Shown piece by piece: positions 6,302 to 63,890 of a DNA stretch of 64,000 nucleotides. Where the stretch lies: contig RSEE01000025.1 in NCBI GenBank assembly GCA_003971905.1, positions 558,001 to 622,000 of the forward strand. The letters are read 5' to 3'. A model generated the notes under the pieces. It saw only the letters and a program-made list of their open reading frames with translations. It did not search any database and was not told the DNA's origin. This DNA is from Moniliella sp. 'wahieum'. Its lineage: Eukaryota > Basidiomycota > Moniliellomycetes > Moniliellales > Moniliellaceae. Positions within the stretch are counted from its first letter, which is position 1. Every line of letters begins with the position of its first letter. A program made the position numbers and the translations under genes.

Positions 6302-6545
6302 TGATGAGACCTGGAGTCCTGATGGTCCTCGAGGGTGATGCAATCGCACTGGTGGTGGTGGTGGTGGTCTAAGCCAACCAGCAACGTCTACAGAGGAACA
6401 ACAAGCAGCGAGTCGCCACCAGGGGCTAACCTGCGGAACAGGGAAAAAAGGAGAGAGAAAACACGGAACTCCCAGGCCTGAGGAGGAACTGAAGGGACAT
6501 TGGCCAAAGCACGAGCCACCCGATGACTCAACATGACATACCGAC
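6302..6545 (+). mobile_element. Half-copy of dispersed foldback/MITE-like repeat
   Basis: This stretch matches 63614-63848 closely over its whole length: both contain GAGACCTGGAGTCC, GGTCCTCGAGGGTGATGCAA, a GGT triplet run, CCACCAGGGGCTAA and end with GCCACCC..GACTCAACA or GCTCAACA. Here only the right half is present. The 63.4 kb copy shows the inverted left arm, so this is probably a truncated member of a non-autonomous foldback family. Confidence 0.8.
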
Positions 6546-13651: not shown

Positions 13652-14828
13652 CATGCGAGGTCCTCGCCAGCCTCACGCCCAACGTTCAGCGTTCCAGCTT
13701 CAAGCTTCAAGCCGGACCCGAACTGCCCGCGACTCGGTATACAACCAACACATTCATTGTGGCAGCGCTTGCCAGTCCTACTCGGGCGGGGATCCCCTGT
13801 CTCCCTTTCGTGTCTGTCCTTGTCTGTGTCCTTCCGCCTGGCTTGTATCTGCCTCAATATCTTTCTTGTCCCAAACAAAATTAATCAAAGCCACCCCTCC
13901 CTTGCCCATTTCGTCCCATCTGGCATCCATCTTTCTGTTGTGTGCCTAACCCAGCTTATATCAGCGTGCCAGCTACCCACCATCAGCACTATCCTAGTCC
14001 TTAGTAGGGGAAGAGAGCGCTGCCTTGATGCTTCGCCCGCGTCGTTCCCTGCCTCGGGCCGTAGCTCGGTTCAAGCACATGCACCATCCTGGCCGCCGTG
14101 CCGACTCGGTTTTCCAGTACGAAAACATAGCAATTACAGCGCATCAACTAGGGTCTAGCTATGCCAGTCAGACCGGGGTAGAGGGGGGGGGGGCAAATGG
14201 AGAGGGGGGACAGAGCCGGGGGGGGGGGGGGGGGGGGGGTGCAGAGAAGAATCCTTTCCGGAAGAATAAAGACCGAGACGAACAAAGTGCAGTGGAGGAG
14301 GATACGAAGAACGGTACGAGTGCGAGTGCAAAAAAAAAGAAAACCATGAAAGCAAACCATGAAACCACAAAAAACCAGAGCCAAAGCCATAGCCAAAGCC
14401 AAAGATGAAAAGCAACAACCAACCACATACACACGTCTCGTGCGTAATGCGCGTAACGCGTAAACCCAGAACCGAGGACCAAGAACCCAAAAACGAAAAC
14501 CCAGAATCCAGAATCCAGAACCGAGGCACCGTGTAAAGTGTGTGGTCGGTCCAATCCCACCGCAGTGGCAGCTGCCACGACAGTGCGGGTGGGTGAAACC
14601 AAGAACAGATATAGAACCGGGGGAGGAGGGAGGCACCAAAAGGGGGGCTCCAAAAGGAAACAAATCAGAACAACAGTTGAACGTTGACCCAAAATGGAAC
14701 CGGAACCGGGACGGAGATGGGGACGGGGCCTTTATACCCAGGGACCAGAACCACGGGACCAGAACCACAACCAACCAAATGCGTTATCGCTAGCCCTCTC
14801 AGCTCAGGGGCCGCCGCGTTCTCCCCCG
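13652..14828. other. Intergenic region between convergent EFR3 and histidine kinase genes
   Basis: Shared 3' region of two converging genes. A short AAGCTT-type heptad array lies at 13694-13712, 43 bp after the EFR3 stop. A G-rich stretch at 14180-14240 includes a 22-base G run (14218-14239). From 14270 to 14780 the sequence is A/C-rich with degenerate short repeats (CCAGAA, ACCAGA words); the long minus-strand frame across it is repeat-derived and I do not accept it as a gene. Confidence 0.55.
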
Positions 14829-19320: not shown

Positions 19321-19849
19321 GGCCGAGGGTGCGAGCTGCAATGTTCAAAGCATGCTGCGGGCACAGAGCGTGCGCCAGTGCGTCTGCCATGGCTGCCCCT
19401 GCAGTCCGATGGACGCAGCAGCATGCACTGCTCCTGCTCAGCCTGGGCGCTCACGCATGCGTGCATCACCCATCGCATGTCCCCCCGATACACGATAGCG
19501 CTTTATTAGTGCGTAGCAGCACGGGCCGGTGCCAGTCTCGGCCCCCAGGCCCCAGGTGCCACCAAGTGCCACCTCCTCGGCTGCCTCCGATCCACGGTGC
19601 TGCCGTGGCCAACGAGGTACCCGGTACGTATGCATGTGTTTCACCACCGAGCATACGGGGCACTGGCAGTCCTCGACATCGATCATCGATCATCACCCGG
19701 CCCAACCCGTAGAGAGTGGAGACATCAGCCAGCACCTCAATAGCCAGCCCAGCCAGCCCAGCTAGAGCAGCTGTAGCACGCTGTAGCAGCCCACAGCATG
19801 GGTGCCATGCAGCCGGCTGTATAGGGCCAGCCCACTGGATCCTGAGGCC

Positions 19850-19900
19850 TTGAAGCTTGAAGCTTGAAGCTTGAAGCTTGAAGCTTGAAGCTTGAAGCTT
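19850..19900. repeat. Perfect heptad array, TGA-AGCT type
   Basis: About 7.3 perfect copies of TTGAAGC, meaning AAGCTT palindromes separated by single G (or C). The array is bounded on both sides by AGGCCT, another six-base palindrome of the same A-N4-T form. A short TCA-TCGA array lies just upstream at 19678-19696. Confidence 0.95.
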
Positions 19901-19985
19901 GAGGCCTGGGGCTGAGAGTGGTAAGCGCGAAGCTTCAACCGGTAACATGTAACAGGGAGCATTAGCATTTACCATGTAATACAAA

Positions 19986-20304: not shown

Positions 20305-20390
20305 GTGACATGCATGACATGTGACATGTGACATGTGACATGCCCATATCATGTATCATGCATCGTGTATCATATATCATGCATCATCCT
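20305..20390. repeat. Two adjacent heptad arrays (CATG type, then TGCA/TATA type)
   Basis: 20305-20343 has five TGA-CATG units. 20348-20390 has six units reading TCA-TGTA, TCA-TGCA, TCG-TGTA, TCA-TATA, TCA-TGCA, TCA-TCC, the complementary orientation. A third array (TCA-CGCG, TCA-CGCG, CCA-CGCG) follows at 20450-20477. Confidence 0.9.
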
Positions 20391-20391
20391 G

Positions 20392-22500
20392 TCAGGGAGG
20401 GTGGTAGAGTGTCGCAGTGGCCTGCAAGCACATACTCTCGGCCAGATACTCACGCGTCACGCGCCACGCGTCACGATCGCCCATCGGCTCCTTTGGACCC
20501 TCTTTTCCGCTTCTCAGAACTCCCGTTTTGCATTTCAGGCCCGCCTTGACAGTGTCTGTGTTATCCTCTCCCCGCTTGCCGTTTCCATCTTTTTTCATAC
20601 CAGGAGACCACCGGCCCTGCGGCCCGGTCTGCTGGGGCTTCGCTCCCAGCCTGCTCGCCGCCTTAGCCACCGTTCCATCCTGTTCGCCCTCGTAGCCCCC
20701 GTTAGTAGAGTTGGGCACCTTCCGGTACGCAGCCAGCGCCTCCTGCGTTCCCGAGTTGAGCAGCGTGTGGTCTACCTCCATTCCTGATCCTCCGAGTGCT
20801 CCAGGCCCCATCACGCGGTAATCAGTGCGCATTACCTTCCTCCCACGCCTCGTCCCATCCTCCTCCTCAACAGTCGGCTCGCTGTGGATGTGGGTCGGGG
20901 ATGGACATGCTGCGCATGGAGCAGCACAACGGGCGGCTGGAGACCAAAACCTCTTAACATGCTTGTCGCTGAGCCGGAGGCACGGGGCTGATGGAATGGA
21001 GGAGCCAAGTGTGGCTGAGCGGGTTGCTGTGCTCGACCACATTGCGACCGCCGGCATCGTCCAGCTTCTGGAGCTGTCCTTGTCGGCTCTCCTTCCTCAT
21101 CTCCCGGCAGCGCTGGCGTTCCTTCGTAAATGCGTTCGCCGTCGCCGTGCGTGCATCCGAACGCGGTCATATCATAAGTGGTAATAAGATAGTCGTTGAC
21201 ATCGTTGGCCGCAGCACGCTATACATGGGGCGCGATACACGAGTACAGCGGGCTGCCGCATCCTCCCATCCGGAGAGGACAGCTCATGACGATGTCGAAG
21301 TGGCCATCCTTCATACCTTGGGGGTCCTCGTCGCTCTGGATCCGTCTGAACTCCGTGCAGATGAAGGCATCTATCTCGGCCAGCACATCGTTCAGCTGCC
21401 CCTCCCTCTCATCATTCTCCCCGCATGTCGCTGTCATGCGCTCGACCATCCGCACGATAGGCTCCACTCTGTTTTGCGATGCTACTCGCAGCTGAGTGAT
21501 GGGAGAAGCCAGCTATCGGGAGCGATCGCTCCAGTGATGCCTTTGGCACACAGGCCGTAGATCAGCTCCCCACAGGCCATGGGGCAGATACCTCCCGTGG
21601 TTGCCTTTTCTCCACGGGGGGGGTAAGGCGGGAGGCAAGCAGGAGCACACGGTCCGGAGCAGTTCCGTGGTAAATACCCTTGGTGAGGGCGGTGAGGAAG
21701 TCAACGGAGCTGTCGCATTCGAAGGCCGCACGTAGGAGGGGTTGGGTCCATCCGGATAGACTTGCCCCAACGTCGGGTCGAAATGTGGCAATCAAAGTGG
21801 CAAAGTCGATTTCGTCCAAATCCCCCTCGGCGTGGTTACTGTCCGTCGCACCGGCGTGGTTACTGTCCGTCGCATCGGCGGGGGTGGTGCCAGGCGGTAC
21901 CACGCGGCCTGTATGGGAAGATAGTGCGGCCGGTGGTGTTGCCCAAGGCTGTGCCCGAACCGAGTTGAATGGGTTCGCATCTCCAACAGGATGGAGCTTT
22001 TCGAGGCTTGTCTGGGTCTCTAGAGTGAGTGGGGCAATGGTGGATAAGCCGGCGAGGGTACTTGCTGCGCGGCTGAGGCAGCCCTCTCCCAGTTAAGTTG
22101 GTTGTGGTCTTGGAGACTGAGTCGGGGGATCCGCGTGTTGAAGGTCTATTCGGTATGCATATCCTTGGCAGCTTGAGGCTGGGACAAAGAAACGCTGAGC
22201 CTAAACCGAGCCGTTCCTCCGGCATGTTGTGTGGTATTATAGTACTACTACCGCCTGTACTTTTGTCCTTTATGGGTCGCAGTGGAGAGCAGGTACTGCG
22301 GACAGGTCGGGACTGGCCTAGTGCTTCTTTCCTGGCTGGCACAGCTGGGTCTACACCGAGTAGATGCGGTTCTACGTGCTCTGATGCGAAGCGATGCTTA
22401 CCAAAACATCCCCCAGCGACTAACTCCGCAGACACGCACGGGGACGGTACTTGTGAGGGTCTGGTGATGTCCCCAGCACCCCACACCTTGCCCCGGCTGG
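20392..22500 (-). mobile_element. Decayed non-LTR-type retroelement with internal deletion (copy A)
   Basis: Minus-strand fragments, N to C: a Pro/Ser/Asp-rich part (LDEIDFATLIATFRPDVG; FECDSSVDFLTALTKGIYHG), the reverse-transcriptase segment GGICPMACGELIYGLCAKG (about 21545-21604), QLRVASQNRVEPIVRMVERM (about 21436-21497), then the post-catalytic segment DIVMSCPLRMGGCG..SCIAPHVYSV (21219-21300), KERQRCREMRK, HTWLLHSI, CLRLSDKHVKRFW and a C-terminal region with MGPGALGGSGMEVDHTL (about 20770-20820). The order matches non-LTR-like reverse transcriptases whose C-terminus carries an endonuclease-like domain. The catalytic palm (YADD-type region) is absent: the sequence passes from QLRVASQ directly towards the thumb. 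Several frames are broken, so the copy is dead. The family assignment is by motif order only. Confidence 0.6.
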
Positions 22501-25988: not shown

Positions 25989-26589
25989 ATCGGGTCCAAA
26001 ACGCTCGTCAAAACCATCCAGGCCGGGGAACACTATATCTGCCCGCTTATATGTATGACATCTGAGAAGCATGCCACGGCACATGCATCGATTATGATCA
26101 CTCTCTGCCTTCAAGCCAGCTGTGTTACTCTGATTATCGATTATGCCCACTCAGTACTCATCGATCATCTGGATTGCTTGTAGCCTAATCAGTGTGCTAC
26201 TATGGGTAGCGCAGCTTGAGGCCCGCGGTACTTCTTGAAATGCTGTGGATGTGAAGATGGATGAATGTGAATCGGGCCCGATGATACTAGAGAATGCGGA
26301 TACGATACGGACTCGTAACCTCATGAACACGATGGTTGACACGAATGGTTGGCACGAATGGTTGGAGACGCTGAAGGTTGGGGTTGGTGCTCAGGCTGAG
26401 TTGAGAGCTGAGAAGATGAACTTCAACTGGCATGCATAAAAGCTTTTAATCGTGGTGAAGTGGTGAAAGCCTCATCTCGACCTTAGAAAATAGGATCCAT
26501 GCGTTAGGTAATCAACACGATGATACGTTAATCGTGCTGGAGCTGTCAGCAGCTGATCCCGTACGCCTCTGTCCTTTTCATCCACCATC
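25989..26589. other. Intergenic region, 25989-26589
   Basis: AT-richer spacer between the SET gene and the Rheb gene with scattered ATCGAT and GATTAT words but no clear tandem array, RNA gene or ORF that I trust. Confidence 0.45.
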
Positions 26590-30352: not shown

Positions 30353-30520
30353 TGTCCGTCAAGGCAGACCGTTAGGGACGTTGGTGGTGGTGACGCTCCA
30401 GGAGGCGTAGCCACGATTGGGATTTGCAGTTGTCGCGGGTTCCACATGAGCGTGAGCTTGAACATTTAAGCAATGGGCGCCCTCCCTGAGGTCCTGAGGG
30501 GCCTGAGTAACTTAGTCACA

Positions 30521-30550
30521 GTGACTAGTGACAAGTGACTAGTGACTAGT
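30521..30550. repeat. Heptad array, TGA-CTAG type
   Basis: TGA-CTAG, TGA-CAAG, TGA-CTAG, TGA-CTAG: ACTAGT palindromes separated by one G. A degenerate TCA-CCGG array follows at about 30594-30625. Confidence 0.85.
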
Positions 30551-40277: not shown

Positions 40278-41113
40278 CGGTATAGAGCAGATGAGGCCAG
40301 CGCCCGCGGTGCTAGAGCGCAGCTGTAATGGGGGAGAAGATTTGGATCAGCAACGCTCAGCTGAAAAGCAAGGGCAGTCTTTATATTTGAATCGCCATGC
40401 CTCCAACGAGCGGCATTTCCTCCTGTCTCTCGCATCGGTGAGGGCGAAGAGCGCCTCGTTTTCGTCAGCATCTCAAGTCTTGCTCTGCCCATGTGCTCAG
40501 CGCTCATGCATCATGGACCCCTTCGTCTCATCCAAGGAGAAGCAAGGCGCGTGTATAGTCCGTACCAGTGAGACCTAGCACACGCAGTGCCGCGGTGGAT
40601 ACTCGTGCCTGACATCTCTGGGACGAAGTGCCGAGGGAAAGAGCTGTTGCCCCGCCATATGACTATCACACTGTAGCGAAACACAGGGGGCTACTGCTTG
40701 ATATGCATGATACGTAGCAGCAAGTGGCTCAGCGGGGACCTACCGGTTAAAAGCCTTTGTACCGCGTATTTCCTACTACTGGCTACGGCAGCCCTACTAG
40801 TAGGGCGAGACGAACCTCCGGCCTTTGTCACTTCCGTGGAGCTTTCGAGCACGTTTTGCGGCCCCCAAACACCTGCGATTGCGCTCGCGCGGCAAGTGTG
40901 TGTGCTGGACTCGACTGTGGCCCGGTGCTCTACGGCATACTGAAAACGCTCGGTCCTCGAGAAGAGAGTGAGCAATGAGACTGGAGGGATACTGAGTACT
41001 GACCGATGACCGATGATCGAAGTGCGACCCTTTGGCCCCTTTCCGGTGCCATCAGCGCCATCAGCCACATCTCCGAACGGCCTGATCGGCCTCATCGCAC
41101 AGGCATTTTTCTT

Positions 41114-41122
41114 TATCTGATC
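41114..41122 (-). promoter_or_regulatory. Candidate iron-responsive GATA-factor site
   Basis: The plus strand reads TTATCTGAT, the exact reverse complement of ATCAGATAA, a form of the ATCWGATAA consensus bound by Urbs1/SreA/Fep1-type iron repressors. It lies 837 bp upstream of the siderophore transporter start. One match within this distance could arise by chance at roughly the percent level, so the link rests mainly on the identity of the downstream gene. Confidence 0.45.
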
Positions 41123-41311
41123 ATCGATGAAACTCGAAATGAATAATTGATTGACTGCGAGAAATACATCCACCACCCACTCTCTCTACCGGGGTCTCAG
41201 ATCCCAGGCAACAACAACCACAGCCAGGAGCGAGCATGTGGGAGACCTGAGAGGAGCCATGCGTTCCAGCCTGTTCCAGCTGGTTGAATCAGCAGCAACG
41301 CCAAAACCTTC

Positions 41312-41362
41312 TCGATCATCGATCAGACTCAAGCTTCAAGCTATAGCTTCAAGCTTCAAGAT
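41312..41362. repeat. Heptad array switching from TCGA to AGCT tetramers
   Basis: TCGA-TCA-TCGA-TCA leads within a few bases into TCA-AGCT, TCA-AGCT, then after ATAGCT two more TCA-AGCT units. Confidence 0.8.
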
Positions 41363-41760
41363 GATGGAACTCATGTAAATGAGGCACTGAGGCCTGTGCC
41401 TGAAGGGCAACTGGTACTTCTATAGTTTAGAATCAAGCGCTTGAAGCACACTTTGGGTTTTGGTGGATATACTGGCCCCGGCCGCCATACGCACACCTCT
41501 GATTTTGAGTTGGCGGCTGCCGCACTCTCAGCCGATATGGCGAACAGAGCCCAAAATCCTTCCCTCTTTTTGACACGGCCTTCGCGGCTGCCTTGTTCGC
41601 AGTGCTCAGCACAGGACTCCATACGCAATACGGTTAAACATTGAACGTTGTACAAGGCTGTTTTCATCTGAAAAGGTCGGGGTGGTTTTCGTGCATTGTG
41701 TACAGTAGCATGTGACACGTGTGACACACCCCGCGTAATAGGTATCTCCGCAGATGTTCG

Positions 41761-41784
41761 CATGATGCATGATGCATGATGCAT
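41761..41784. repeat. Heptad array, TGA-TGCA type
   Basis: Three perfect ATGATGC units with ATGCAT palindromes separated by one G. Confidence 0.9.
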
Positions 41785-42111
41785 GGTGGATGCTCGATGC
41801 CTCAAACGGGGCAAGAGGGTTGGTCATTTAATATTTATCCCTTCCCTCTCGAAGAGCTTGAAGCTTGACTAATTAATGATTCACGATCTGACGGGTGGAG
41901 AAAGAGATCCCATCAGTGCATCAGTACTCAATTAATAATGTACTCAGTTTTCGTGCACTGCCGCAAGCTCTCATGGAACTGTATAGGCCTGTGGGGCCAG
42001 GCATTCGCCTCTCGTCTGCACGCGTGGTCTACGCACACACTCGCTTCCTCGTCGGACGGCACTCACATCAAACTACTGGGCTGCCACTGCAGTCATTTAT
42101 CGACAAAAAGA

Positions 42112-42154
42112 TTCAAGCTCTTCAAGCTCTTCAAGCTCTTCAAGCTCTTCAAGC
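42112..42154. repeat. 9-bp variant array TTCAAGCTC
   Basis: Four copies of a 9-bp unit TTCAAGCTC, related to the AGCT heptad but with a CT added between units. It runs into TCA-TGCA-like words (CATGCATCATGCATCAAGC) at 42157-42175. Confidence 0.85.
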
Positions 42155-42203
42155 ACCATGCATCATGCATCAAGCTTCAAGGCAACAAGTCTTGCATATC
42201 TGA

Positions 42204-42252
42204 TGTCACCGGTCACCGGTCAGCCGCTCACCTGTCAATGTCACACGTCACG
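42204..42252. repeat. Heptad array, TCA-CCGG type
   Basis: TCA recurs at a mostly 7-bp period: TCA-CCGG, TCA-CCGG, TCA-GCCG, TCA-CCTG, TCA-ATG, TCA-CACG, TCA-CGG. ACCGGT palindromes are separated by C in the first units. Confidence 0.8.
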
Positions 42253-42369
42253 GGAAAATATAATAGGCCGCAATGGGGCTGTACCATATATGTGCAAGCT
42301 GTGTCGAGTATCGATATATCGATCACCCACTCTGGATGCAAAAGGCACAAGGAGCACGGAGCGTACTGC

Positions 42370-42433
42370 GTAAGGCTTACGGCGTAAGCGTGTAAGGCCT
42401 AAGGCCTAAGGCCTCAGCCTGAGGCCTGATGCC
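42370..42433. repeat. Heptad array, TAA/TGA-GGCC type
   Basis: Three TAA-GGCC units, then TGA-GGCC and TGA-TGCC, flanked by degenerate units (TAA-GGCT, TAC-GGCG). Shows that the trinucleotide can vary (TAA for TGA) while the palindrome and period persist. Confidence 0.8.
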
Positions 42434-42686
42434 GGCTTGGGGGGCCAGAAAAGGCCAGCCTAAGGCCCGCGTTACGCTAAAGGGGGTCTGAGACGGTGAG
42501 CGTCTCCCTGGGCCTGAGCTTGAGGGCCGGATGCACTGATGCCTGACGAGTACGATGAGTACCTCGTACAGGGATGTGGGTGGTGCTGCACACTGAGGCT
42601 CAGTCCTGAGGTAGTGAGTAATAATGCTTCGTGCTTAGTACTTACACTTATTTACCGGCTGAGGCGCTGATCCATTGACATTGAAT

Positions 42687-42714
42687 ATTGATGTATGATG
42701 CATGATGCATGATG
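42687..42714. repeat. Heptad array, TGA-TGCA type
   Basis: TGA-TGTA, TGA-TGCA, TGA-TGCA, TGA-TGTG in tandem at a 7-bp period. Confidence 0.85.
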
Positions 42715-42884
42715 TGCCGATGCCCTCACGGAATCATTAATCACATCAGCGTTGGTGAAACATGCCAAGCCCTCGCACCTGGCCACACGCAACGCGCCAC
42801 CCACTCGGGACAACTGTAGGCGGGGAGGCGGTGGCCAAAATTTCTGGTATCTGATTTGCGATATTTATAGGCCACAAGCCGGCG

Positions 42885-43081
42885 GTCACCGCTCACCCGT
42901 CAAGCTCAACCTTCTTCAAGCTCCAAGCTCCAAGCTTCAAGCTCCAAGCACCAAGCTCATCAAGCTTCAAGCTTCATGCATCATGAAAGGACGCTTCAAA
43001 TCTTATAGATCTTTTAGATCTTAGACCTTACCGGCCGTCTGGTCATTTGACCTTTGACCGGTGACAGGGACTAGGGACTAG
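42885..43081. repeat. Compound heptad block
   Basis: A cluster of consecutive arrays: TCA-CCG (42885-42902), then about nine AGCT units with TCA or CCA spacers (42917-42976) passing in register into TCA-TGCA-TCA (42976-42985), then AGATCT words (43009-43020), then TGA-CCTT, TGA-CCGG, GGA-CTAG, GGA-CTAG (43047-43081). Confidence 0.8.
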
Positions 43082-43824
43082 TATTACTGCGAGCGTTTGT
43101 TACAGTATGCACCTTGCCTTTTCTGGTCGTTAGGCGCGCCAACAGCGCCTATATCCCTCTTCCTTCTGTTCCTTTTCTTCCCTCTTCACCATACTGCATT
43201 CGTTCTACTTCTCACCCATGTGTGTTGGCCGAACCACCTGCCGCGATGCCGAGAGAACATGCCGTCTCTGCCGGTCAGAATGCACAGGTTCCAACGGTAC
43301 CTTTTTACCCCCCCCACTTCTAGCTGTATGATGCCCTGTGAAGACAACCCCCTCTCCACCTATGGGTCTTGGCGAAAGGATTACGGATAGTCGATGACGC
43401 GCCGCCGACGGAAACTGAGTCCAGAGCTGGCCTGACGCTCTGGGGACCCACCGTTGCTTTGGCGCCGTCACTATATGTTCACACGTTCGGACTGTTGTGC
43501 CTGGGCCTGACCAAAAAAACATATGTCTTCAACGTAGGACAGACTGTCGTGCCTGAAAAAAAACCCTGTCAGATGCCCACTCCTTTCCCTCGACCACACA
43601 TCTTCCTTAGCCGGGCCCGATGAGAACCGGCAGCAACAATAATGGCATGCACCGGTCACCGGTTATGCTGCGTTCCAGAAAACGTGTTGGGGCTGAACGT
43701 GCCGAACCCGAAAACACCAAGTTTCTTCGTGCCTGTGAGGTGGCCCCTCTTCGCCTCCGTTAGGGCATCTTCGGAAGGCGCCCCTAGAAACATAACCCTC
43801 CTTCCTGCTAGATCGCGTCCATTT

Positions 43825-44957
43825 CATTGACAGAGCTTAAGGCTGGGACAGGGGGAACGCTACGTCTAAACCTAACCGTTCATCTTGCGGCTAGATTGTA
43901 TTGGATGGCTGGAACGGTCTCGGTCGGAACATAATACGCGTTTCGTGCTGAATCGCGCCACCGATAACTGGGATAGGGGGAAGCATTCAGAAACACGCGC
44001 TGCGGGGAACCGGTTTGTCTCCTTAAGTTCCCTCAGACTCAGGTTGATTCGACTTGATTCTCTTGGTTCTCGTGTACAACACCACTAAAGTCGTTCTGGT
44101 CCAGCGGGTGTTGTTGCTCAGTCCGACGGGAAAACGTACGCGTGAAGAACGGTTGGGGAATGAGTACTGAGTGGATAGTGTTGAACGGACACAGTCCCGC
44201 AACCTAAACTGCTGCGGGGCGAGGACGGGTGCAAACTCGGGAAAACCTATTACGGTTGAATGGAAGTCCTTACCGATATGATGCCATATCATTGACAGAG
44301 GTTAAGGCGGGGACAAGGAAACGCTCTACGCCTAAACCGACCCGTTCATCTTGCGTGTGTTACTTGGTAGCGCCACCCCTGTTAAGGAACCATCAGGGGA
44401 ATCTCCAGGAGATCAGGATCCTCTGTGGTGCTCGCCATCCGTTCCCATACCCGACGTAGCGCATGTGGACACGGATAACGTGGTAGACATCCGAGCGAGG
44501 AACCATTTCCATTGAGACTCAGTAGCCAAATTCTTCCAATGGGCAAACATCTTGCCCGCTGTCTTGGTGCCGCAGTATCCTCGCGTCGTCAAAACCAGGG
44601 GGAAAAACGGCTCTTGGGTGCGTCCCTGGTACTGGGAGTTCTTGTCGCATTCTGCTTGTTCAAGCAGCCGAAGCAACTCCTTCTCCCGGCGTTCCATTCC
44701 AGGGGCCCCGTCGCTGTGCTCTCATGCACCACCCTCCGGTACGCGCTCTGCGCCTCATGCGTTCCCGTGTCGCGCAGCGTGTGGTCGACCTCCATTCCGG
44801 TTCCTCCCAGTGCTCCAGGCCCCATCACGCGGTAGTCGGTGCGCCTAGCCCTCCGTCCGCGCCTCGTCCCAGCCTCTTCCTCCACAGCCAGTGGTTCCTT
44901 GCGGACGTGGGTGTCGGGGATGGAGCGTATACTCTCTTTTATAGTAGTTCCAACCAT
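43825..44957 (-). mobile_element. Retroelement remnant, C-terminal part (copy C) plus flanking repeats
   Basis: Minus-strand coding remnant at 44413-44957: IRSIPDTHVRKEP, RTDYRVMGPGALGGTGMEVD (matches copy A), HTLRDTGTHEAQSAYRRVV, then after a frame change REKELLRLLEQAECDKN and FFPLVLTTRGYCGTKTAGKM, a pattern seen at the C-terminus of non-LTR-like reverse transcriptases (basic EK-rich helix, then F-x-P-x-V and G). Downstream, two copies of a roughly 60-bp repeat sit at 43825-43890 and 44290-44355; a related copy is at 22171-22222 near copy A. No catalytic motifs remain. Confidence 0.6.
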
Positions 44958-46345: not shown

Positions 46346-46987
46346 GCTGGGGCGAGCGGATGCGCAGATGCTCTGATGACTGAGGCTCAGTCGTGCGGGT
46401 ACTGATCGTGTCCGGGTCCGGGCGGAGGTTTGGGCCCCCGCGCTGCGGGTCGCGCGACTATCACATCACACACGCCGTGCCGTGGCGGGGCTCCGCGGGT
46501 GGTCCTGTTGGTGGGTGTACTAGTTGGCGGATACCGGCTGGACTGATTAGATCAGCAATGAAATCTTTGTCAGGGGGCGCTGGTCTCCCATCTGCTTGGG
46601 CCAGCTCGCAGCCAAACACCGAATCGCAACCAAGTGGGCGCACATTTGGCGGAACAGAGCGGAACCACCGTTTGAAATTGCTCCCGCAAACTTCGTGGGC
46701 GACGCACACTGCCCCTGGGCCGGCGCCTGGGTGACCGGTGACACGCCGTGACACCACTTGCATCCTAATCTTGGACCCCGTCCGCGCTGAGACTCCGATT
46801 CAGTACCACTCAGCGCCGCCCAGCTTTTCTCCGCCTTTCTCTGCCGCGCTGGCCTCGCGGTTTTAACTGCGTCTTCTAGCACACTGCCTTGGCCATCTCC
46901 ATCACCAGCAGCCTTCTTCCCTTCCCTTCCCCTTCCCATTCTCCCTCCCGCTCCCCTCCCACTCCCACTCCCACTCTCGCCACAACC
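46346..46987. other. Divergent promoter region between PHS1-like and HOM2-like genes
   Basis: Bidirectional spacer of about 640 bp. A heptad array with TGA-CCGG and TGA-CACG units lies at 46731-46756, and a C/T-rich tract (46910-46985) precedes the HOM2 start, typical of fungal promoters. Confidence 0.5.
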
Positions 46988-57261: not shown

Positions 57262-58068
57262 GCTAAGCGGCACGGTGTCGATTTCAGCGTCGATTGCTGG
57301 CTGCTGCGCGTTGACGTTCTGGGGGAATGAATCATCTCGTCTGTGGGTATATGAGGTGTGAGGTGGAGGCTCAACTTGGGCCGCATGCTTTAGATGACAG
57401 GGAGAGGGGGGCTGGCTGGGCTGGTTGAGCTACTAGGCAGCGCGGGATGCGCAGCGCAAGGCTGATTGGACATAGAGCGGCCAGAGGGAAGGGAAGGGCA
57501 GCTGGTGCAGAATAGGTTCTCTCAGCGCCTGGCAGCCCCCGAGGTGGGTGTGGCAAGGGTGGCATGTTGCTGCAGCACCTCATTCCGCAGGCTAGCTTGG
57601 GGGGGGGGGGGGGGGGGGCTCGTGGGTGTCCTTCCGCTTCCGGATGCGAACGGCGGCGGCGGAGGCAGTGGAGCGCCAGTGGGAAGGCGCACACAAGGCC
57701 GCGAATAAGCGCGGGGGCGGCCCAGCGCGGCGCGAAGATGAAGATGGCCTGGTGAGCACACACGGCGTAGCACGCACTGGGTACTGACTAAGGGGGGCCG
57801 CCGTCGGCCAGCCCCACCTGCTCGCCATCCCCACAGGCTCGCTTGCCAGCCCAGCCACGAATATGAATCGTCGCAGCGTCCCCCGGCGCACCGCACGTGA
57901 ACATCCCCCCGTCACGCGTCACCCGTCACACTCAGCCACGCCGCCCAAACGTCCGCGTTATCCGCTGGCCGCGGCGGCCCCAGCATCCATCCCGCGCTCC
58001 ACCACCTTCCCCACCCAGACCACCTCGTCCACACGGGGGCCTGCCTTGGCCACACCGGTACAGAGGCC
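57262..58068. other. Intergenic region with poly-G tract
   Basis: Spacer between DENR and the kinase gene. It contains a 20-base G run at 57599-57618 and a TCA-CGCG heptad array at 57911-57936. The kinase start could lie upstream (ATG at 57863), so the last 200 bp may be coding. Confidence 0.5.
57911..57936. repeat. Heptad array, TCA-CGCG type
   Basis: TCA-CGCG, TCA-CCCG, TCA-CAC, TCA: 7-bp period, about 130 bp before the called kinase start. Confidence 0.7.
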
Positions 58069-63395: not shown

Positions 63396-63890
63396 TAGAG
63401 TGTGTTGAGCCACCGTGTGGGTGGCTCCAGTGTGGGCCAAACGTCCCCTTTCAGCCCCACCTCCCAAGCCTAGGAGTTCCGTGGTTTTCTCGCTCCCGTG
63501 TTTTCCTAGTTCCGCGGCCTACTTAGCCCCTAATGGCAACTGGCTGGCTGATGTTACCCTGTACTAGTAGGCGCAGCATTGACCACCATCACCACCACTA
63601 CTAGCGCCACTGCATGATGAGACCTGGAGTCCGGATGGTCCTCGAGGGTGATGCAATCGCACTGATGGTGGTGGTGGTGGTCTAAGCCAACCAGCAACGC
63701 CTACTGAGGAACATCAAGCACCGAGTCGCCACCAGGGGCTAAGCTGCGGAACAAGGAAAAACAGGAGAGAAAAACAACCGAACTCCTAGGCCTGAGGAGG
63801 AACTGAAGGGACATTGGCCAAAGCGCGAGCCACCCGGTGGCTCAACACTGCATTGCCCTCGAGGACCAGCAGGACTCCAGGTTTTCCGCC
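63396..63890. mobile_element. Foldback (MITE-like) element with long inverted arms
   Basis: The left arm (63396-about 63600) begins GTGTGTTGAGCCACCGTG and contains CTAGGAGTTCCGTGG and TTAGCCCCTAATGG. The right arm (about 63600-63850) is its imperfect reverse complement: CCACCAGGGGCTAAG, GAACTCCTAGG, GGCCAAAGCGCGAGCCACC and GGTGGCTCAACACT. The arms are about 220 bp each with a short centre, and no coding sequence. 63851-63890 repeats in inverted form part of the centre (CCTCGAGGACC). Homologous pieces occur at 6302-6545 and 45105-45170. No clear target-site duplication is visible to me. Confidence 0.75.

Follow-up and report, generated by a model that had tools for sequence, protein, structure and literature searches.

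Among the products of transposases are duplications of no more than 7 bp with a symmetric core at their centre. The target duplications of hAT elements are 8 bp long, and Tc1 scars keep bases of the inverted transposon ends. For the hAT system Ac/Ds in yeasts, the accessible text of PMC5873905 describes as the rule that bases are deleted and P nucleotides inserted on either side of the break, counts 28 kinds of scar among 128 revertants, and proposes flank hairpins together with the Artemis-related Pso2, which is involved in S. cerevisiae. Galileo, a member of the P superfamily, makes 7-bp target duplications with the palindromic consensus GTAGTAC, as stated in the accessible text of PMC2775673. 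Muta1, a Mutator-like element that moves by cut-and-paste and is active in yeast, makes 8- or 9-bp duplications according to the accessible text of PMC5225508.

Here we analyse a 64-kb stretch, referred to as the window (C25:558001-622000), of a 69.5-Mb, 223-contig assembly of Moniliella, in which frames similar to tricalbin and Rheb point to a fungus. An earlier note had described many short arrays of period 7 in this window as TGA or TCA followed by a self-complementary tetramer. In the literature searched (mostly titles and abstract openings, with few subscription journals), neither this heptad grammar nor the TNA grammar reported below was described.

Materials and methods

Twenty stretches of 10 kb (L009-L028), one per contig from C1 to C20, were picked by position and joined to the window as an own-genome set of 264 kb, i.e. 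0.4% of the assembly. Statements on the whole genome are based on pattern counts, not on its full sequence. Coding DNA was predicted with a home-made codon model. In the case of the window, exact period-7 runs of at least two copies were compared with 20 dinucleotide shuffles. Insertion classes were defined by k, the number of reverse-copied bases before TNA, and l, the number of forward-copied bases after them.

Results and discussion

The window contains 47 exact period-7 runs (shuffle mean 3.65) and three exact runs of period 8, which confirms the abundance of heptad arrays. The palindromic form was likewise recovered, with 25 of the 47 runs consisting of a palindromic hexamer plus one base (shuffle mean 0.2). 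Among the 86 period-7 runs of the 20 other stretches, 30 were near-palindromic, and 27 of these 30 carried an A-N4-T hexamer.

Checks of the kind proposed in the earlier note agreed with the observation. Genome-wide, five TGA at 7-bp spacing occur in 2309 places and the backwards pattern in 426 (for five TAA, 272 and 180). When three TGA or TCA stand at this spacing (66 placements), 86 of the 132 gaps are self-complementary, compared with a fraction of 0.00 in four shuffles. The next triplet, ATG, reached 20 of 94 gaps, and CCC/GGG, at 71 three-copy placements, yet had only 2 self-complementary gaps out of 142. Altogether, no other triplet core and no other period gave a signal comparable to that of TNA at period 7.

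The idea of one rule for all arrays was thus upheld, but not its restriction to TGA and TCA, as the core is TNA with any N. Neither are all the arrays perfect palindromes: the one at 42917 has one broken pair and the one at 43046 two, while the segment 42112..43081, put forward for its heptads, includes at 42112-42154 an array of period 9. Arrays are also not the typical form, since 127 of the 163 clusters in the 264 kb hold just one TNA-palindrome-TNA.

Like CNG triplet repeats, these arrays have a unit made of a palindrome and one base, and a strand can pair with itself. If such self-pairing were the driver, the perfect palindrome TGA-N4-TCA would be expected at least as often as TGA-N4-TGA. 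The opposite was seen: among 217 occurrences of TNA-palindrome-TNA in 264 kb, the middle base was the same on both sides in 183 and different in 34 (shuffles 8.0 and 26.8). Symmetry, or hairpin formation by the array, is therefore not supported as a selected or favoured feature. The palindrome is a by-product, in which two flank bases are copied backwards beside a forward copy of 5 to 7 bases. Of the two causes suggested earlier, a templating mechanism is supported and selection on symmetry is not.

The basic form is a word of 12 bp, either ab-TNA-b'a'-ab-TNA or its reverse complement, and the palindromic tetramer of this word is copied from the two flanking bases. In the lag-7 profile of 120 single units, the repeat extends two bases to the left and none to the right in 31, none to the left and two to the right in 16, and not at all in 10. 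A search that left the core free found, at lag 7, 5-bp duplications whose 2-bp filler is reverse-complementary to the flank, 47 and 38 of them where shuffles gave 9.0 and 7.2. Of these 85, 54 carry TNA at an end. When words were counted by core in the 264 kb, TnA gave 162 and shuffles 0.7; any other core gave at most 14. By extrapolation from 162 per 264 kb, the assembly would hold about 4 x 10^4 words.

Pattern counts over the whole genome agree. The pattern ACTNAGTACTNA occurs 2955 times and its backwards control 143 times, with the same N twice in 86 of the 100 places listed, among which adjacent hits on opposite strands do not count as independent. For the ANT-core word ACANTGTACANT there are 80 places, with the same N twice in 22 of them; read backwards it is a TNA-core word, found in 6225 places.

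Words are blind to a, b and N. The frequency of the two bases ab tracks availability (16 dinucleotides, chi-square p = 0.30), 15 of the 16 possible palindromic tetramers are present in single units, and in isolated words N was A in 9, C in 34, G in 29 and T in 13, with 11.1, 31.4, 31.4 and 11.1 expected. There are 207 perfect words (1.0 in shuffles) and 259 in which one constraint is broken (39.0 in shuffles), so that a large share of the scars is still intact. The observation that arrays lie outside coding DNA extends to words: 160 of 162 are off the predicted coding DNA and two within it, compared with 2206 of 9662 TNA sites, a scarcity that can be explained by selection against frameshifts.

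For window 40562-43646 the assembly has a second copy, L007 (C1:202383-205403), and the matches C1:229645-234289, 198612-202532 and 243231-247439 are collinear with the window in reverse order. C1 therefore most likely carries the other haplotype or a homoeologue here, as judged from this collinearity (window about 5.6-47.5 kb; C1:198612-247439). Identity at aligned columns was 0.965 and 0.963 in two long blocks.

Comparison of the window with L007 gave 52 indels, among them 11 of exactly 7 bp, two of 6 bp and one of 8 bp. By eye, eight of the 11 fit the rule, the one at 42537 fits with one changed base, and the remaining two do not, one being a plain duplication at a TNA core (41000) and the other lying at 41542. 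In three blocks together, the third of which (L031) is partly misaligned, 16 of 156 indels were 7 bp long; against a sparser stretch, L043, the number was 2 of 50. Since the compared stretches are array-rich, such rates are not genome averages.

For 87 word copies, the other copy of the locus was checked for the predicted empty site; 33 were classifiable at a strict threshold and 54 were not. Among the 33, 18 occur in both copies, and 15 occur in just one, the other copy having the empty site as predicted. These 15 comprise eight single words (that at 42682 adjoins an array) and seven within arrays. At other TNA sites, taken as a control, 7 bp were absent in 4 of 199 classifiable places (222 more were unclassifiable). 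Presence and absence go in both directions, and further cases were seen by eye at 41230 and 44166 (Table 1). Two copies alone give no polarity; nevertheless, insertion at some point in the past must have produced a structure that repeats and reverse-copies its own flank. The 7-bp units are built at ab-TNA-cd as ab-TNA-[b'a'-ab-TNA]-cd or ab-TNA-[cd-d'c'-TNA]-cd.

Table 1. Words, empty sites and arrays in the window, with their state in the second copies where compared
Feature	Position	Strand	Remark
Word ATTTA-AT-ATTTA, single 12-bp	41826..41837	+	7 bp absent from L007
Word ATTGA-AT-ATTGA running into TGATGCA array	42680..42714	+	7 bp absent from L007
Word AATCA-TT-AATCA, single	42732..42743	+	7 bp absent from L007
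Word TGAGT-AC-TGAGT	44161..44172	+	absent from L043, alignment by eye
Word GGTGA-CC-GGTGA, single	46730..46741	+	
Word GATTA-TC-GATTA, single	26132..26143	+	
Empty site AGTGAGC	40967..40973	+	L007 carries TGAGC-GC-TGAGC
Empty site GATGAGT	42554..42560	+	L007 carries GATGA-TC-GATGA
Empty site TTTGACC	43053..43059	+	L007 carries TTTGA-AA-TTTGA
Empty site CCTAATC	46764..46770	+	L043 carries CCTAA-GG-CCTAA
Mixed array; left flank GC copied into left unit, right flank TG into right unit	40495..40515	+	
Mixed array; left flank CA copied into left unit, right flank AG into right unit	42161..42181	+	
Mixed array AGCT, AGCT, TGCA on TCA core	42960..42983	+	right flank fits, left does not
9-bp-period array, CTTCAAG-CT repeated	42112..42154	+	putative no-loss (+9) form
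TCACCGG array	42205..42222	+	
TAAGGCC array	42393..42414	+	one unit fewer in L007
TGATGCA array	41760..41785	+	one unit fewer in L007
TCATCGA array	41312..41325	+	
TCAAGCT arrays	41329..41360	+	
TGAAGCT array, longest in window	19849..19902	+	
TGACATG array	20315..20342	+	
TGACTAG array	30520..30550	+	

These results bear on the possibility that the arrays are selected as sites for a dimeric DNA-binding protein or as structured RNA. Their noncoding location and their clusters in the window (around 19.3-20.5 and 41.3-43.1 kb) would be in line with it, but absence from coding DNA is expected of any frameshifting insertion. Moreover, nearly every palindromic tetramer is used, the dinucleotide that is copied tracks its availability, the spacer base is repeated instead of complemented, and almost half of the classifiable words are in one copy of the locus only. 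We regard selected binding sites as very improbable; spacer identity, one-copy words and availability leave selection on symmetry or binding unsupported as the main cause.

Single-unit slippage, held less likely in the earlier note, cannot explain the common rule of the arrays. Unlike in CNG repeats, single units enter empty sites and the palindrome follows the flank; CNG-type arrays would grow through slippage of a unit already in place. Here, first units arise at empty sites, and differences in array copy number are present as well. Slippage or CNG-like folding is thus unsupported as the origin of first units, given the same spacer base, the empty sites and the blindness to bases.

The size of the insertion is tightly limited. 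Above control were the classes with k = 2 and l = 3, 4 and 5, corresponding to duplications of 5, 6 and 7 bp (206, 13 and 17 words); l = 6, an 8-bp duplication, gave none. Further counts at k = 2 were 2, 1 and 1 for l = 7, 9 and 11, and the 17 at l = 10 are read as arrays; at l = 3, k = 3, 4 and 5 gave 2, 2 and 0. Measured against a 7-bp duplication abTNAcd, the three classes may be read as two P nucleotides on one side and a loss of two, one or no bases on the other. One-loss classes at TNA number 6 and 7 (maxima at other cores 3 and 3). The no-loss classes number 7 and 6 (maxima 2 and 6), only modestly above other cores, and are suggestive rather than strong. Plain 7-bp tandem duplications had a TNA core in 17 of 292 cases and hence are not TNA-specific.

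This limit is also informative about a replication error, in which a strand would fold back at a TNA loop, copy two of its own bases into a 7-base mini-hairpin and recopy the site, the arrays then slipping. Indeed, a mini-hairpin with a 2-bp stem and a TNA loop, placed before the original site, is one way to write the main product, single units do arise from empty sites, and arrays may well gain units via slippage. However, the folding model predicts no limit by which loops of 3, 4 and 5 occur and none of 6. It also has to account for stem bases that are immaterial (9 A/T-only stems where 15.5 were expected, and 19 G/C-only stems where 26.5 were) and for the nearly absolute requirement for T and A around the middle base. 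An origin by replication error is, in our view, improbable.

The structure of mixed arrays gives a further view on the mechanism. Some arrays among the genome matches listed change their palindromic tetramer midway while keeping the TGA or TAA phase. If each event copies one flank, repeated events at one TNA would give an array of no more than two blocks, the left one copied from the two bases that precede the array and the right one from the two that follow it. Exactly two blocks are seen in every one of the 11 mixed, fully palindromic arrays of the own-genome DNA examined. The left flank fits in 9 of the 11 and the right in 7 of the 11, with a chance of 1/16 each; the 11 are not all independent, as L007 and L030 are second copies of window loci.

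As preferred explanation, to which we give about an even chance, we propose that the units are scars of cut-and-paste transposition. A transposase would make a 7-bp staggered cut centred on TNA and duplicate the target NNTNANN, leaving the flanking DNA with hairpins, presumably by chemistry of the hAT/RAG type. A host nuclease of the Artemis/Pso2 type would then open each hairpin two bases from its tip, giving 4-base overhangs. Joining that keeps one overhang and loses the other would gain two palindromic P nucleotides and lose two bases across the break (+7), and rarer joins losing one or no base would give +8 and +9. Repeated events at one TNA may lead to in-phase arrays whose units on either side are copied from the flank on that side. 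The hairpins, the nuclease and the staggered cut are steps that we infer from the sequences of the products.

Compared with known scars, the likeness is partial. A duplicated target surrounds hAT scars, as direct repeats of 5 to 7 bp surround TNA here, but the hAT duplication is 8 bp, and here it is at most 7 bp, is centred on TNA and gives no words at 8 bp. The P nucleotides on one side and the short deletion on the other that the accessible part of PMC5873905 reports have their counterpart in the 2-bp filler, the reverse complement of the flank; unlike the many kinds of Ac/Ds scar given there, those described here show far less variety, stand in in-phase arrays and belong to no known element. 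Galileo shares the 7-bp duplication, which is the limit here (with a modest no-loss class), yet has the consensus GTAGTAC where NNTNANN leaves the outer bases free, and P-nucleotide scars are absent from the description in the accessible text of PMC2775673. Muta1 is similar in its cut-and-paste movement with duplications of several bp and differs in their length, in the lack of a target preference and in excision that is mostly precise when duplications are present (accessible text of PMC5225508). Tc1-like scars keeping two bases per transposon end are ruled out, because the tetramer matches the flanking host bases.

We looked for an element. Domain searches of the genome gave no match for hAT (PF05699) or the TNP-like P-type transposase (PF21787), with the controls silent too in both cases, and none for the MULE transposase (PF10551), for which 3 of 14 controls matched. 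Thus, no known transposon family was matched in three domain searches, two of them with silent controls. Inverted-repeat elements directly between TNA were not above shuffles at end lengths 7 and 8, and lengths 10 and 12 yielded none. Inverted ends were present in 11 pairs of 7-bp TNA repeats (none in one shuffle); by eye, all but a weak pair in L025 lie within the arrays. This pair, at L025:2540-3243, encloses 703 bp between 7-bp GGTGATG repeats (TNA core) with imperfect inverted ends (11/14) and is a weak, chance-compatible candidate for the missing element. Opposite window about 21830-21870, L030/L031 have several hundred extra bases beside a short tandem repeat, and no TNA-core duplication was seen there by eye.

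A scar without an element could also be the work of a host or domesticated enzyme that cuts or hairpin-caps DNA at NNTNANN, with end joining writing the same 7-bp product. Identical products are expected from such an enzyme, so the sequence evidence for transposition serves it equally. The dominance of one product type and the lack of an element in the 264 kb, the second-copy stretches or the three domain searches speak for it. Counting against transposition are the greater uniformity of the scars compared with known hAT scars, the plain 7-bp tandem duplications that are not TNA-specific, the modest no-loss class and the weakness of the only 7-bp-flanked candidate, in L025. On the other hand, a duplication of at most 7 bp on a symmetric core is made by transposases, we know of no host enzyme that makes such duplications, and the absence of an element is weakly tested (0.4% of the assembly and silent controls in two of the three domain searches). 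An enzyme acting without an element is the main rival; we consider it less likely, and scars of transposition remain our preferred reading.

In other organisms, TGAAGCT heptad arrays are common in Pseudomonas and some other bacteria, without a general TNA grammar. They were found in at least 120 bacterial stretches, mostly Pseudomonas by record titles, and in 9 contigs of a viral collection. In 120 bacterial stretches (944 kb, four-copy arrays masked), 14 of 144 heptad runs were near-palindromic, about as by chance, and TnA gave 13 words (2.7 in shuffles) with other cores reaching 47; these masked stretches show no general TNA rule, and TnA does not lead among the cores. The viral-collection contigs (9, with 51 kb, too few to judge) gave 7 TnA words (1.3 shuffled) and at most 4 for other cores, and 6 of 27 heptad runs were near-palindromic, all AAGCTT.

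Other repeats were noted in the window. Positions 20716-22141 and 44285-44930 are parts of a repeat with dozens of genome copies at about 77-88% identity; neighbouring copies contain what we take to be a reverse-transcriptase-like frame with a YLDD motif, and the repeat is probably a retrotransposon. A repeat of about 232 bp lies at 6302-6533 and 63615-63846 of the window, at L019:6001-6234 and at L011:6576-6794, with more than 20 copies among the genome matches listed, most at 90-94% identity. Runs of 22 and 20 G are present at 14218-14239 and 57599-57618.

Conclusions

On balance, the chances seem to us equal for and against an undescribed enzyme, belonging either to a new transposon group with 7-bp NNTNANN duplications or to the host and free of any element, that writes 7-bp templated insertions across the noncoding DNA. 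Such insertions would be an ongoing class of mutation that seeds heptad arrays and makes up a visible share of the indels between copies. An ordinary microsatellite survey would class the arrays as slippage and miss their origin. Puzzling short repeats instead become a readable record of single events whose states before and after are known. If a transposon is responsible, its scars reveal the target rule, the duplication length, the hairpin-opening step of the host and a count of past activity without the element itself. If there is no element, they would represent a new intrinsic type of mutation with a strict sequence rule.
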